Made by a program: the position numbers and the translations under genes. DNA of 64,000 bases from Nitrospira sp. GTDB taxonomy: Bacteria; Nitrospirota; Nitrospiria; Nitrospirales; Nitrospiraceae. The number at the start of each line of letters is the position of its first letter. Within the stretch, counting starts at the first letter, position 1. The stretch lies in contig JARFXO010000002.1 of the NCBI GenBank assembly GCA_029194665.1, positions 62,001-126,000 on the forward strand. Reading direction: 5' to 3'. A model generated the notes under the pieces. That model was given only the letters and a program-made list of their open reading frames with translations. It had not been told where the DNA came from and searched no databases. This document shows positions 2,279-59,495 of this stretch, piece by piece.

Positions 2279-4060
2279 ATGGAACGCAGGATGTATCTGC
2301 GCCATACGACACGCCGCAAGGATGGCAAGATTCATACGTATTGGCGGTTGGTCCGCTCGGTGCGGATGGGCCGCCGGGTCGTCCAGCAAACGGTGGCACA
2401 GTTGGGCGAATTGGATGCCCAAGGCTGTGCCCGTGCGAGAGCGCTGGCTCAGGTGCTCGTCGGAGGGGTCACACAACCGGATCTGTTCACACCGGAGACG
2501 GCGGAGGAAACGGTCGTTCCGGTCCGGCTGGATCCGGTGCGGCTGGAACGCAACCGCCGCTTCGGCGATGTGTGGCTGGGCTGGACGCTGTGGCGCGCCT
2601 TGCAGTTGGACACCGCGTTGGGGTCGCTGCTGCCGGCGGGCCGGGAAGCGGTGTCCTGGGCCACGATGGCGGCGGTCTTGGTCCTGGCCCGATTGTGTGA
2701 ACCGGCGAGTGAGTTGCACATTGCCGAGACCTGGTACCGGCAGACTGCGCTGGAGGACCTGCTCGGCGTGCCGGCTGACCTGGTCAATGAGGATCGCTTG
2801 TATCGGGCGCTGGATCGGCTGCTGCCCCACAAGCGGGCGCTGGAGTCCCACCTGGTGGCCCGACTCCGGGAGCTGTTCGCGTTGGACTATGATCTGCTGC
2901 TCGATGACGTGACGAGCACCTACTTCGAAGGGCCGGCGGCCGCGAATCCGTTAGCACACCGGGGCTACAGCCGGGATCATCGGCCCGACTGCAAGCAAGT
3001 CTGCATCGCCTTGGTGGTCACGCGGGAGGGGCTGCCCCTGGGCTATGAGGTCTTCGCCGGCAACCGCACCGACGTGACGACGGTCGAGGAGATCGTGGGG
3101 ACGATGGAAGCTCGCTATGGGCTCGCGCAGCGGATCTGGGTGATGGATCGGGGCATGACGAGCGAAGAGAATCTGGCCTGGCTGCGGGCCAGCGGGCGCC
3201 GGTATCTGCTCGGGACGCCCAAGAGTGAGTTGCGCAAGTGGGCCCGGGCGCTGACCGACGAGCGCGACTGGACGACGGTGCGGGAGGGCGTGGACGCGAA
3301 GACCTGCCTCGGGCCCGAGGGCGCCGAAACGTTCCTGCTGGTCCGATCCGTCGAGCGGCGCGAGAAGGAGCGGGCGATGCACACGCGCTTCGGGCAGCGC
3401 ATTGAGAGCGGGGTGGCCCGTTTGGCCCGACGACTCAGTCGGGCGCGCCGTCCCCTGGAGCGGGGCCCCATCGAGCGACAGATCGGCCGACTCCTCGCGC
3501 ACAATCCCCGTGCCGCCGGGCGGTACGTGATCGACGTGGTGGCAGACCCGACCACCGCGTCGGGTCTTCGGGTGACGTGGACCAGCCGGCCGGAATGGGA
3601 CGACTGGGCTCGCGTCAGCGACGGCTGCTATGTGCTCCGCACCAACATTCCGGACTGGAGTCCGGAGGACTTGTGGCGCACCTATGTCCAACTCGCCGAC
3701 GCCGAAGCCGCCTTCCGGATTCAGAAAAGCGACTTGGCCCTGCGTCCCATCTGGCATCAACGAGCGGATCGGGTCCAGGCTCACATTCTGGTGTGCTTCT
3801 TGGCCTATGTGCTGTGGAAGACCCTGGAACAGTGGCAACAGCGGGCTGGGCTGGGCCACAGTCCGCGCACGATCTTAGAAGAACTCCGGACCATTCAGAG
3901 CACCGATGTGGTGTTGCCGAGGACGGATGGCCGGGAGGTCCGGCTGCGCTGCGTGGTGCGGCCGGATCACGCCCAGGCCGCCTTGCTCGACCGGTTGGGC
4001 CTGGACTTGCCACACCGATTGCGGCTGACGCCGCCACTTGCGATGGCCACCCCGGTGTAG
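2279..4060 (+). CDS. IS1634-family DDE transposase
   Basis: This 593-residue protein starts [17 protein letters not shown], the usual N-terminus of IS1634 transposases. The frame contains the DDE catalytic region: a first acidic block ([13 protein letters not shown], about residue 207), a second ([16 protein letters not shown], about 288), and a C-terminal Y-R-E/K-like block ([19 protein letters not shown]). No stop or frameshift interrupts it, so the element may still be active. It is transcribed opposite to the glycan genes, so any effect on them would be through interruption of readthrough. Confidence 0.92.
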
Positions 4061-48433: not shown

Positions 48434-49610
48434 GGAAAGGTCTGATTTATTCTTTTCGCAGGATGTGCTAAAGGAAGCGCAGTCCTGATGAGGAGGCGCC
48501 CCCATGCAGCAAGCGACGTTTGTAGAGGTCACGTTTGAGCAATATCCCAAATCCACCCGTCGCGAGCGGTTCCTCGATGAGATGAATCGCGTGGTGCCGT
48601 GGGCGGAATTCGTGGCGGTGATCGAGCCGGTCTCCCCCAAGGCCGACGGTCCGGGGCGTCCACCGGTCGGAATTGACCGCATGCTGCGGCTGCATTGTCT
48701 CCAACAGTGGTTCAACCTGTCGGATCCGGCGGTCGAGGAAGCGCTGTATGACTCCCGCGCCATGCGACAATTTGTGGGGATTGATTTGGGCCGCGAACCC
48801 GTGCCCGATGAGACGACGATCTGCAAGGTTCGGCATCGGCTGGAGGCTCACGAGTTGGGGAAACAGCTCTTTGTCCGGATTGGGGAGTATCTGGCCACGC
48901 ACGGTCTGCAGGTGAACCGGGGGACGATCGTGGATGCCACCATCATCAGTGCCCCCAGTTCGACGAAGAATCGCACGAAGGCGCGGGATCTGGAGATGCA
49001 TCAGACCAAGAAGGGTAACCAGTGGTATTTCGGCATGAAGGCGCATATCGGCGTGGACAGCCAGACGAAACTGATTCATTCGGTGACGGCCACGGCGGCG
49101 AATGTGCATGACCGCCAGGTATTACCGGAGTTGCGGCATGGCCAGGAGATGCGGGTATGGGGGCGACTCGGCGCACAGTGGACAGCGAGACGTCATCCGG
49201 CACCATGCGCCACGGGCCCAGAGCTTCATCCAGGCGAAAGCCCATCGCCATCGGCCACTGAGTGAGGCGGAGTGGGCCAGGAACCGCACGAAATCGAAAG
49301 TCCGAGCAAAGATCGAACATGCGTTCTTGGCGATCAAACGGATGTTCGAGTGGGCCAAAGTCCGGTACCGAGGGCTGGTGAAGAACACCCATTGGCTCCA
49401 GATCAGTTGTGGCTTGGCGAATCTGTACGTGGCACGGCGGCTGTTGGCGGGGGTGGAGAGAACGTGTGCCTGAGGGCTGGCAACGGGCCATCGGATGGTG
49501 GATGCCCTCCACGAAAAGGCGCACAGACCAGCGGATGCCAGCCGAATCCGCCCGGGTGACCGACCCAGGAACAGCGTTCCGAGTGAAAACGTGAATTAAT
49601 CAGACCTTCC
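48434..49610 (+). mobile_element. IS5-family (IS5 group) insertion sequence between comA and comB
   Basis: Imperfect terminal repeats (left GGAAAGGTCTGATTTATTC, right complement GGAAGGTCTGATTAATTC) flank the element and the flanks carry a CTA duplication (48431-48433 and 49611-49613), as for the YTAR targets of the IS5 group. The element is inverted relative to the host genes. The right-hand CTA supplies the TAG stop of comA on the minus strand. Confidence 0.85.
48504..49473 (+). pseudogene. IS5-family transposase with a +1 frameshift
   Basis: GGAGG precedes ATG 48504. The first frame reads RRERFLDEMNRVVPW, GRPPVGIDRMLRLHCLQQW, DATIISAPSSTKN and KKGNQWYFGMKAHIGVDS, the first half of the catalytic core. 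In a G5 run at 49159-49163 the frame is lost. The continuation DSAHSGQRDVIRHHAP to AKIEHAFLAIKRMFEWAKVR (with the catalytic Glu) lies in the next frame until 49473. Removing one G restores a full-length enzyme. It could be an inactivated copy, a sequencing error or a homopolymer-slippage site. Confidence 0.82.
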
Positions 49611-57096: not shown

Positions 57097-57378
57097 CTAA
57101 CAGTCTCCCCTCACATCCCTGATCAAAGCTGCCCGGAGCGTCGCGTAGTCAAGTGTGAGCTCGGCAAATTGTCTTTTCAGCCGTCGATGTTCATCTTGTA
57201 GGGAACGTAGCCGATCCTTATCGTCCGGTTGCTGTTCGTGCCCAAACTTCGCACGCCACCGGTAGAGGGTGCTTCTAGAAATCCCATACCGCCGTGAGAC
57301 CTCTCCCACCCCCTGGCCGGCATCCAGTTCCGACATCATGCGTTGTATTTGATCGTCTGTAAAGCGGAGTTTGGACAT
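57097..57378 (-). CDS. Orphan IS3-type OrfA helix-turn-helix protein
   Basis: About 93 residues. SKLRFTDDQIQRMMSELDAG, RRYGISRSTLYRWRAKFG (helix-turn-helix) and a C-terminal leucine-rich coiled coil (LRSLQDEHRRLKRQFAEL) are those of IS3-family OrfA proteins. No OrfB and no terminal repeats are present. It lies between the NusG-like and export genes in the same direction, so it is transcribed with the cluster. It may be a relic or a retained DNA-binding protein. The start may also be upstream, at 57402. Confidence 0.7.
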   Translation of the reverse strand: MSKLRFTDDQIQRMMSELDAGQGVGEVSRRYGISRSTLYRWRAKFGHEQQPDDKDRLRSLQDEHRRLKRQFAELTLDYATLRAALIRDVRGDC

Positions 57379-57441
57379 GACTGCCATTTCCCCTGTCGCC
57401 ATCCCAGATCTGTGGAATGGGTGAAGGGGAAGAGGGGAGGT

Positions 57442-58017
57442 TCACTGCAGAGGCACAATCTCGTCGGTTCCTATGTGGATGAGCGCAGCTCGCTGCAGGA
57501 GGGAGGCGCGGATCACCAATCCATGGTGACTGGCTCGTCGTACGAGTTGGCCACGGAGACCGACAAGAGGACCTCGTATCACTTCTACCCATGTACCTTC
57601 GATCAGGTAATCGCAGGGTTCCATCATACGGTTGATCGACGACACTTGCTGCAGAACGGCGATTTCTTCCGCTGAAATGGGTTCGGGTTTCAAGGCTCCG
57701 ACAATGCGAACGACACCCGGTGTCTGGAGAACGGCAAGACTAGTGGTTAACGCAAAGTTGGCAAAGCAATATCCGCTGAATAGCGGAAGCGTCGTCCACA
57801 CTTTGCGATCGGACCATTGACGGTATTCCTTGCCCAATGGAAGCAAGGGTTCGATGCCCACCGCCAACAGCCGGTCCCGCACCTGTTTCTCGTGGCGAGA
57901 ATAGGTCTGAACGGCATACCATTGGCGATCGGTCTTCGATGCTATTACTTGTTCTACCTCCGGTATCCTTACCTGTGTGTACCGTGCAGCGTACTCTTCT
58001 TCACAAACTGTAGTCAT
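57442..58017 (-). CDS. NusG/UpxY-type specialised transcription elongation factor
   Basis: The start is placed at ATG 58017, with a GGGG-type ribosome site; the longer frame to 58188 would include the terminator-like hairpin. About 191 residues. The NGN domain runs from RQWYAVQTYSRHEKQVRDRL to the aromatic LFSGYCFANFAL, and the KOW domain is EGTWVEVIRGPLVGLRGQL. Operon-specific NusG paralogues of capsule loci reduce pausing or termination over very long operons. As the first gene of a 58-kb one-way cluster it is well placed to do this. Confidence 0.87.
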   Translation of the reverse strand: MTTVCEEEYAARYTQVRIPEVEQVIASKTDRQWYAVQTYSRHEKQVRDRLLAVGIEPLLPLGKEYRQWSDRKVWTTLPLFSGYCFANFALTTSLAVLQTPGVVRIVGALKPEPISAEEIAVLQQVSSINRMMEPCDYLIEGTWVEVIRGPLVGLRGQLVRRASHHGLVIRASLLQRAALIHIGTDEIVPLQ

Positions 58018-58551
58018 AGCTTCGCCCCGTGAGCCCCAGTCTCTTTTCATAAAAATGCGGCTGTTCAGCCGCGAGGAGCAGGAACAATTGGCTCTACTAG
58101 TACCAGAGAACATCGGCCTTAGACCATAAGATAAATGTCGAGTTTTCGTGTAGTCGTCACCAGCACTTTTGTCTGAACGATTGACCATCCCGTGTGGTAA
58201 CTGCAGCAGGTGTTACTTTGTGTTGCTGTAATCGCACCTATTAATAAGCCTTCCTTACAGATGCATCACGTGAGAGTCGTACAAGCGGCAAGAAAATCAG
58301 AATAAGATAATCTTTTCAATAAATTAGAAACAAGAGATGAGTTCCAGTTCGCACCCCCTACTAATAGGGGGTTTCATCCTGACCAGTCAATACGCGAGAT
58401 ATCCTTCTGTTCGCGAGCCAGGTGCGAAGGGGGATTATCGAAAAGCGGGCAGTCTAGAACTCGGAATCCTTCCACATGGCCACGAACAACCACACCTCTA
58501 TACGGGACAATTTCAATAGCATCCATCTTCTATCTTGAACCAGGAGCCAGC
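58018..58551. other. Divergent regulatory region between the glycan cluster and the LuxR-type regulator
   Basis: About 530 bases without a gene. It holds the terminator-like hairpin of the leftward leader, AT-rich stretches at about 58298-58340 with an AAGAT-A-ATCTT inverted repeat, and a CCTACTAATAGGGGG stretch near 58359. No clear -35/-10 pair or RfaH-type ops element was found. Confidence 0.5.
58051..58072 (-). terminator. Intrinsic-terminator-like hairpin in the leader of the glycan cluster (possible attenuator)
   Basis: Reading leftward, GCGGCTG-AA-CAGCCGC (stem 58057-58063 with 58066-58072) is followed by ATTTTT. The GC-rich 6-7 base-pair stem plus U-run is a good intrinsic terminator, placed about 34 bases before the start of the NusG-like gene. 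Confidence 0.7.
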
Positions 58552-59229
58552 ATGTCCGACACCGATACGCCCACGCTCACAATCGCAATTCTTAGTAGTC
58601 AGTGCCTCGTGTGGTTGGGCTTACAGAAAATTCTCGAAAGCAGCGCCACTATCCCGATGACTGTGCACCCACACCAGAAACTTGATCAGTTCCACACCGA
58701 GAACAGACCAGACGTGTTCATCCTGGACCTGGAGACCGAGCGCAACGTCCTCGACATCATCAACCGGATACGGGAGTCCACCCCGACCAGCAAGATCGTG
58801 TTGTTGTGCGGCATGGAGGACCAAGAACGCACGCGGGCAGCGTTTGCTTCCGGCGTCGATGGCATTATCCTCAAGGTTCAACCACCTGGAGTCGTGCTCG
58901 CTGTGATTGAAGCGCTGTATGCCACCACGAAGCCTCAGCCATCCGTGGAACGGAAGGGCACGATGAAAATGGGTCTCAGGCTCTCCTTCACAAAGCATGT
59001 GGAATCCGTCCCACCGCCATCTGCCTGGCCCGAGGTCTTGACCGAGCGAGAACGCGAGATTATCCGATTGGTGGGGCAGGGACTCTCGAACAAAGACATC
59101 GCCTACAATTTATCGATTAGTGACAGTACGGTCCGGCACCACATGACCAGCATTTTTGACAAGGTCGGCGTGCCCAATCGACAGAAGCTCCTGATCCACG
59201 CGCATCATTGCCAATCCACTCCGGTCTAA
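58552..59229 (+). CDS. NarL/LuxR-family response regulator with an atypical receiver
   Basis: The 225-residue protein starts at ATG 58552 behind AGGAG. The receiver domain has a candidate phosphorylation site Asp59 in VFILDLET and the late Lys in GIILKVQPP. However, the acidic pair expected after strand 1 is replaced by Ser-Ser (IAILSSQCLVWLG) and the switch Thr/Ser block reads VLLCGMED. The C-terminal domain has LTEREREIIRLVGQGLSNKD and the DNA-reading ISDSTVRHHMTSIFDKVG. It diverges from the glycan cluster and may control it, possibly without phosphorylation. Confidence 0.85.
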   Translation: MSDTDTPTLTIAILSSQCLVWLGLQKILESSATIPMTVHPHQKLDQFHTENRPDVFILDLETERNVLDIINRIRESTPTSKIVLLCGMEDQERTRAAFASGVDGIILKVQPPGVVLAVIEALYATTKPQPSVERKGTMKMGLRLSFTKHVESVPPPSAWPEVLTEREREIIRLVGQGLSNKDIAYNLSISDSTVRHHMTSIFDKVGVPNRQKLLIHAHHCQSTPV

Positions 59230-59419: not shown

Positions 59420-59495
59420 GCCGAGGTAGCTCAGTTGGCAGAGCACAGCCCTGAAAAGGCTGGTGTCGACAGTTCGATTCTGTCCCTCGGCACCA
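59420..59495 (+). tRNA. tRNA-Phe (anticodon GAA)
   Basis: All arms fold: acceptor GCCGAGG with CCTCGGC, D-arm GCTC/GAGC, anticodon stem CAGCC/GGCTG with loop CTGAAAA (anticodon GAA), T-arm GACAG/CTGTC with loop TTCGATT, discriminator A and an encoded CCA at 59493-59495. It is 76 bases long. The integrase gene lies directly beyond its 3-prime end, so it is the likely integration site of the element to the right. Confidence 0.95.

Follow-up and report, generated by a model that had tools for sequence, protein, structure and literature searches.

A likely ops-type loading element at the start codon of a specialised nusG gene in Nitrospira, downstream of a terminator-like leader hairpin

Introduction

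How does a specialised NusG-type factor find the operon that encodes it, and what is the role of a terminator-like hairpin placed just in front of its gene? Both questions are raised by a Nitrospira locus in which a NusG/UpxY-type gene heads a polysaccharide cluster and is preceded by a GC-rich hairpin with a U-run, which an earlier note on this DNA had read as an attenuator that the factor could override, giving positive feedback on its own operon. Target finding by operon-encoded NusG paralogues was called unknown in an evolutionary survey published in 2020 (PMC7593976). The worked-out cases in the literature that we searched are those of RfaH and ops, LoaP, and UpxY. The ops element of Escherichia coli is the 12-nt sequence GGCGGTAGCGTG. 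It is a consensus pause; the non-template strand there folds into a C3:G8 hairpin, and RfaH reads its loop (PMC5995543). Recruitment is possible solely at the pause site (PMC7819879), and UpxY is reported to contact the upstream duplex DNA in a passage of PMC12691694 that cites Saba 2024. Here, we analysed the hairpin, the leader around it and the related loci of other genomes, starting from a 64-kb stretch of DNA that is called the window throughout.

Results

The source genome (4.8 Mb; closest named relatives, Nitrospira MAGs) carries three NusG-family genes, namely a housekeeping nusG (C5), the gene of the window, which belongs to a group of orthologues designated clade A, and a clade-B paralogue (C7). 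The clade-A gene (57442-58017, minus strand) encodes 191 amino acids counted from an ATG that lies inside the 24-nt element described below, with an NGN domain at about residues 33-120 followed by a KOW domain according to Pfam, NCBIfam and AlphaFold2. Its assignment to the NusG/UpxY type was upheld, since it scores 68 bits against Pfam NusG and its best NCBIfam match is UpxY (NF033644) at 91 bits, which falls below the curated cut-off of 100. With the same model, two clade-A orthologues reach 99.9-100.1 bits, one reaches 104.9 bits and the clade-B paralogue of the same genome 121.6 bits. The RfaH family (TIGR01955) gives 33 bits in NCBIfam against a cut-off of 144.5, outside the range of that family. 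The AlphaFold2 model, which we set against the fold-switching alpha-helical KOW domain of RfaH and which is of moderate confidence (mean pLDDT 71.5; input alignment rich in NusG sequences), combines an NGN domain with a beta-barrel KOW domain, and its structural matches in the PDB are NusG and RfaH.

Read from its 5' end on the minus strand, the cluster consists of the nusG-type gene, a gene for an IS3 OrfA-like HTH protein (57097-57402), wza-, porin- and wzc-like genes, and then glycosyltransferase, flippase and other polysaccharide genes. The nusG-type gene does head the cluster, as had been stated, and the cluster is one of polysaccharide genes, but it is not strictly a 58-kb one-way unit, because it is broken at 2279-4060 (+) and 48504-49265 (+) by transposase genes of opposite orientation. 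The OrfA-like protein, recognized by Pfam and NCBIfam between nusG and the export gene and similar to a reading frame at locus L060, is apparently a domesticated part of a transposase; it occupies the second slot of the operon, where no upxZ is found. Upstream and divergent from the cluster lies a gene for a NarL/LuxR-type response regulator (58552-59229, plus strand; Pfam, NCBIfam). Farther out, a tRNA-Phe gene (59420-59495, +) is overlapped by a phage-type integrase ORF (60663-59431, -), and an integrated element probably stretches from here to the side opposite the polysaccharide cluster.

The minus strand reads GCGGCTGAACAGCCGC at 58072-58057, which corresponds to an RNA hairpin (GCGGCUGAACAGCCGC) with a stem of 6 bp, 5 of them G-C, and a GAAC loop. 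With ATTTTTATG directly after the stem, the whole structure (GCGGCU-GAAC-AGCCGC + AUUUUUA) spans 58072-58051, its U-run lying at 58051-58055. On its own, the RNA hairpin folds with -9.3 kcal/mol, a value equalled by none of 200 shuffles; the folding of the whole 100-nt leader was no better than that of shuffled sequences (z 0.15). It is the only site of its kind on both strands of the window when a stem of at least 6 bp with at least 5 GC pairs and no GU pair, followed by at least 5 T in 6 positions, is demanded, these thresholds having been chosen after the site was seen. Under the same post hoc thresholds, dinucleotide shuffling of the 534-nt intergenic region produced an equally good site in 0.025% of cases, and shuffling of its last 120 nt did so in 0.075%. 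The hairpin therefore has, as the earlier note had recognized, the makeup of an intrinsic terminator, a GC-rich stem with an immediate U-run, and it does so beyond chance expectation; its distance of about 34 bases from the gene is correct for the ATG at 58017, with the frame also open upstream as far as 58188 in the source genome. The possibility that the hairpin is a coding part of a longer nusG was rejected because the frame closes soon upstream in several orthologues (ORFs of 199 and 210 aa). Besides, Rfam at gathering thresholds returned no known RNA family in the leader, the sole match being a tRNA.

Comparison of nine close leaders established the hairpin as a real structure in this lineage, because 87% of the cells keep its pairing and three of its pairs have changed in both partners, and its stem covariation score of 0.381 exceeds that of shuffled alignments (0.287; 4 of 500 as high) and falls to 0.23 or less when the stem is slid along the alignment. 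Among the 25 distinct orthologous clade-A leaders, the hairpin with its U-run is present in about 7-8. The U-run is weakened or absent in L008, L012, L014, L015 and others, some of which keep the hairpin (L014, L015), a different structure takes its place in L010, L013 and L018, and some leaders have none. The loop, where present, is GAAC or AAGU, neither of them of the UNCG type. All 25 leaders, in turn, carry the 24-nt element.

This element, TGGGGCTCACGGGGCGAAGCTATG (58015-58038, minus strand), lies 20-40 nt downstream of the hairpin, terminates on the predicted start codon, and consists of a 12-nt paralogue-specific flank (58038-58027) and the 12-nt core GGCGAAGCTATG (58026-58015). It occurs once in the window, with 0 copies expected. 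The aligned orthologous upstream regions yield the consensus TGGGACTYACGGGGCGAAGCTATG, which likewise ends at the predicted start codon, and across 20 aligned leaders 15 of its 24 positions vary little or not at all, among them GGCGAA, C, T and T of the core. The sequence preceding the element is variable, unlike the element itself, and the residues encoded right behind it also vary among orthologues, in a protein N-terminus that is predicted to be disordered, which indicates that selection acts on the nucleic acid at this position. Across 98 genomes, the element (at most 3 mismatches) was found in 19/19 genomes with a clade-A protein and in 0/79 others, and a reversed control pattern gave 1 match; clade membership and some of these counts were obtained by comparing tables by hand.

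The core has the length of ops and the layout of the pause consensus, with GG at -11/-10, a pyrimidine at -1 (T58016) and G at +1 (58015); both G residues and T-1 are invariant and G+1 is kept in 17 of 20 copies. It includes GCGAAGC (58019-58025), the sequence of an ultra-stable GNA-loop DNA mini-hairpin, both closing G-C pairs of which are present in 19 of the 20 clade-A copies, the exception being L017 with GCGAAAC. Loops of the GNA or GNNA kind, when closed by two or more G-C pairs, make DNA hairpins extraordinarily stable, with a Tm of 78 C for GCGAAGC as an isolated fragment (PMC4686876), and the definition of this class, taken by sequence, would also cover the GCGGTAGC of ops. A generic DNA folding model gave 0 kcal/mol for the core and did not reproduce a stable hairpin, so that the DNA hairpin proposed here rests on the published measurements of the isolated heptamer.

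The second paralogue, with about 48% protein identity to clade A, has an element of its own upstream (CTGTAAGTGAGAGGGCGAAGCTGTG), in which the flank is different and the core is the same. In the form CTGTAAGYGAGAGGGCGAAGCTGTG, this clade-B element was found in 55/55 genomes with the protein, as judged by comparing the list of proteins with the list of element matches, and in 2 others (57/98 in total), with 0 control matches. Several copies end in TGTA, TGTC or TATA, and the element is in places up to 560 nt from its nusG, so that co-location is not always tight. Clade C (30-38% identity) carries a near-exact ops, GGCGGTAGCCTG, one base from that of E. coli, behind yet another flank, as ATCCGGTNNATACCGGGANGGCGGTAGCCTGTT about 60 nt before the gene; the pattern matched 7 of 8 clade-C loci. 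A related TGTAACTGAGAGGGCGGAGCAGTG precedes UpxY-type genes in other families of the phylum (L161, L173). The self-complementary GC-loop-GC layout recurs as GCGAAGC in clade A, GCGRAGC in clade B and GCGGTAGC in clade C. Moreover, of 29 UpxY-type genes in 25 Nitrospiraceae genomes, 20 have the exact core GGCGRAGCTRTG in the 100 nt on their 5' side, where 0.008 would be expected. Genome-wide, the bare core is no commoner than a reversed control, hence the specificity must include the flank. The bare 12-nt core was accordingly discarded as a genome-wide regulon signal, an extra copy in the source genome lying inside a TraC-like ORF. GCG(N)AGC was absent before distant NusG-like genes of other phyla, most of which look like ordinary NusG. 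By comparison of their sequences, the three paralogue clades have a core idea in common and differ in their 5' flanks.

Several further observations were made at these loci. In clade B, a small gene for a four-helix protein resembling those of 23S rRNA intervening sequences lies between the element and nusG in several genomes, among them the source genome (L150 1154-1531, G000 contig C7). Most of the clade-B loci L101-L130 and L150 have 4-6 consecutive T some 20-25 nt ahead of the core, usually without a strong hairpin; these Ts are reminiscent of the T-rich motifs read by some NusG proteins. At L114 (G020 contig C6), a clade-B-type element without nusG precedes what is left of a Gfo/Idh/MocA-like gene, with transposase genes around it, possibly as a trans target or a relic. 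In clade C, an inverted repeat CCGGT..ACCGG precedes GGCGGTAGCCTG at L139, L140, L141, L142, L144, L145, L146 and L148. At L151 (G033 contig C23), tandem ops-like elements about 240 nt apart stand before one nusG paralogue.

The position of the clade-A element on a start codon means that the conserved sequence might act at the level of RNA instead. An element of translation initiation, joining ribosome site and start codon, or a protein-bound RNA motif would explain why most copies end exactly on ATG or GTG, and the sequence is present as RNA in the transcript. The element is nevertheless kept where the start codon has been lost (L016, L019, L022), intact before frameshifted or stop-ridden nusG remnants (L060 and L153; G033 contig C39, G004 contig C117), and across an intervening gene, which argues that it is more than start-codon context; its layout also matches a transcription pause combined with a DNA-specific stable hairpin, and in clade C the near-exact ops stands well before the gene. 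We consider an RNA or translational role improbable on these grounds. Another DNA-binding protein could also be the reader, for instance the OrfA-like HTH product, whose gene adjoins nusG. An operator of this kind appears very improbable, given that the core is common to three nusG clades in different operons, of which nusG is the common partner, and that the element is not palindromic. The element looks like the loading site of the NusG-type factor.

Upstream of the hairpin, alignments revealed a conserved block (GACAAAAGTGCTGG ... CTCGACATTTATCTTATGGT; 58122-58173, minus strand) with a palindrome-like GACANNTGTC and a TATRGY-like motif, in which no canonical sigma-70 match was found. It is probably a promoter or activator region, and the transcription start that we infer from it would make the hairpin part of the leader RNA. 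The block was rejected as a motif of promoters across the genome, close copies being found almost solely at this locus. Close to where the leader presumably begins, a small hairpin of weak energy (CTCT-GGTACTAGT-AGAG; 58092-58108, minus strand) shows an exchange of CTCT/AGAG for CCCT/AGGG between relatives. Between the NarL-type regulator gene and the operon lies a perfect-looking palindrome, ACCCCCTATTAGTAGGGGGT (58353-58372, minus strand), unique in the window and conserved in several relatives, which is likely a regulator site and possibly that of the divergent NarL-type regulator.

With a probable loading site located, the role of the leader hairpin can be weighed. An attenuator overridden by the factor, through antitermination of the LoaP or UpxY kind, would be in keeping with a hairpin and U-run that are real rather than chance, with base pairs that covary in close relatives, and with reports that UpxY and LoaP prevent premature termination in leaders. 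However, a polymerase terminating at about 58050 would not have reached the element, so that the factor would not yet be loaded there, and a factor loaded at the element cannot suppress the hairpin on the same transcript because the hairpin precedes it. Most of the orthologous leaders are without the hairpin and U-run or have another structure in its place, instead of carrying a terminator that follows the loading site and is conserved along with the factor, and the loop is not of the UNCG type read by LoaP in leader RNA. We therefore found no support for the attenuator proposed earlier, and judge it unlikely, as we do an RNA-recruited, LoaP-like mechanism at the hairpin. A classical hairpin-stabilised pause was also rejected, since about 41 nt separate the 3' edge of the hairpin from the RNA 3' end predicted at the pause, which is too far and puts the hairpin outside the polymerase. 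Much better placed, if still somewhat short of an even chance, is the reading that the hairpin is a plain basal terminator or an insulator and dampens read-through arriving from upstream, with regulation residing in a NarL-type promoter and the ops-like site. The good stem with its U-run, the restriction to one lineage, and the divergent regulator and conserved palindrome upstream all agree with it; yet the hairpin lies inside the presumed leader, where it would damp the operon's own transcription unless termination were weak.

Discussion

Taken together, these results make it quite likely that the elements belong to one family of ops-type sites for pausing and recruitment in Nitrospirota, with a shared DNA mini-hairpin core, paralogue-specific flanks and positive feedback in cis. 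RNA polymerase coming from the upstream promoter would pause at T58016, and the exposed non-template strand would present GCGAAGC, which could fold into a DNA mini-hairpin to be read by the N-terminal domain of the paralogue on the paused enzyme. The clade-specific 12 bp TGGGRCTYACGG would lie partly at the upstream edge of the bubble and partly in duplex DNA, and would separate the factor's own site from that of its sister paralogue. The loaded factor would then ride with the polymerase over the ~58-kb polysaccharide operon that starts with its own gene. Of the feedback loop suggested before, action in cis is very probable and the feedback itself likely, but a terminator-like hairpin as the target of the factor did not stand. 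The lineage-specific hairpin at 58072-58057, ahead of the loading site, may act as a basal terminator of modest strength or as a block to read-through, or else may, as a nascent structure, prevent backtracking of the paused polymerase. Nascent hairpins are also said to aid the loading of UpxY.

We found no published description of these elements in Nitrospira in the open-access literature that we searched. One genus holds three paralogue clades, each accompanied by a conserved element of its own type, and the element of one clade is almost that of E. coli ops. The rules of recognition, loop versus flank, thereby become testable by swapping short pieces of DNA. The flank would be a natural determinant of specificity, lying where UpxY reportedly contacts the duplex. 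In addition, the core suggests that nitrifiers employ at a natural pause site an ultra-stable DNA mini-hairpin familiar from the chemistry of oligonucleotides; the polysaccharide of their biofilms is probably the product of these operons. More broadly, and with the balance about even, Nitrospirota may possess orthogonal DNA loading codes, in which paralogues of one cell read a common GN(N)A mini-hairpin and are kept apart by the upstream duplex, ops (GNNA) and GCGAAGC (GNA, fused to the start codon as a self-priming operon switch) being two members.

Among known systems, LoaP of the Bacillus dfn operon resembles the present case in joining a NusG paralogue to a leader with hairpin and terminator, but its target is a UNCG RNA hairpin located upstream of the terminator, whereas the Nitrospira hairpin is not of that type and is unconserved, the conserved element coming after it. 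In Bacteroides, UpxY is likewise a NusG paralogue encoded first in a capsule or EPS operon; it is the best NCBIfam match of the clade-A protein, and its reported contact with upstream duplex DNA is, in our reading, a further likeness. The two differ in phylum, in the score short of the family cut-off (91 vs 100) and in the second gene, which is not UpxZ here.

The RfaH/ops system of E. coli is alike in its 12-nt element with pause layout, its GC-loop-GC non-template sequence, its place early in a long polysaccharide operon and its cognate specialised NusG. Unlike it, Nitrospira has a GAA triloop in place of the GGTA loop, a long paralogue-specific upstream flank, an element at the factor's own start codon, and, very probably, action in cis. 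A counterpoint to our reading is that nothing in the GAA loop corresponds to T6 of ops, which is flipped into a pocket of RfaH (H20, R23, Q24, R73); in an alignment judged by eye, the pocket residues H20, R23 and Q24 are not kept in the paralogue, and the protein falls far below the NCBIfam RfaH cut-off (33 vs 144.5). Because its loop is without the T read by RfaH, the element would be a variant of ops rather than a copy. Finally, the d(GCGAAGC) mini-hairpin of Hirao and co-workers is known from oligonucleotides and aptamers, and its natural use at a pause site is our proposal; it shares with the core the identical heptamer, the GNA loop and the two G-C pairs, and the GC-GGTA-GC of ops fits the GNNA class beside it.
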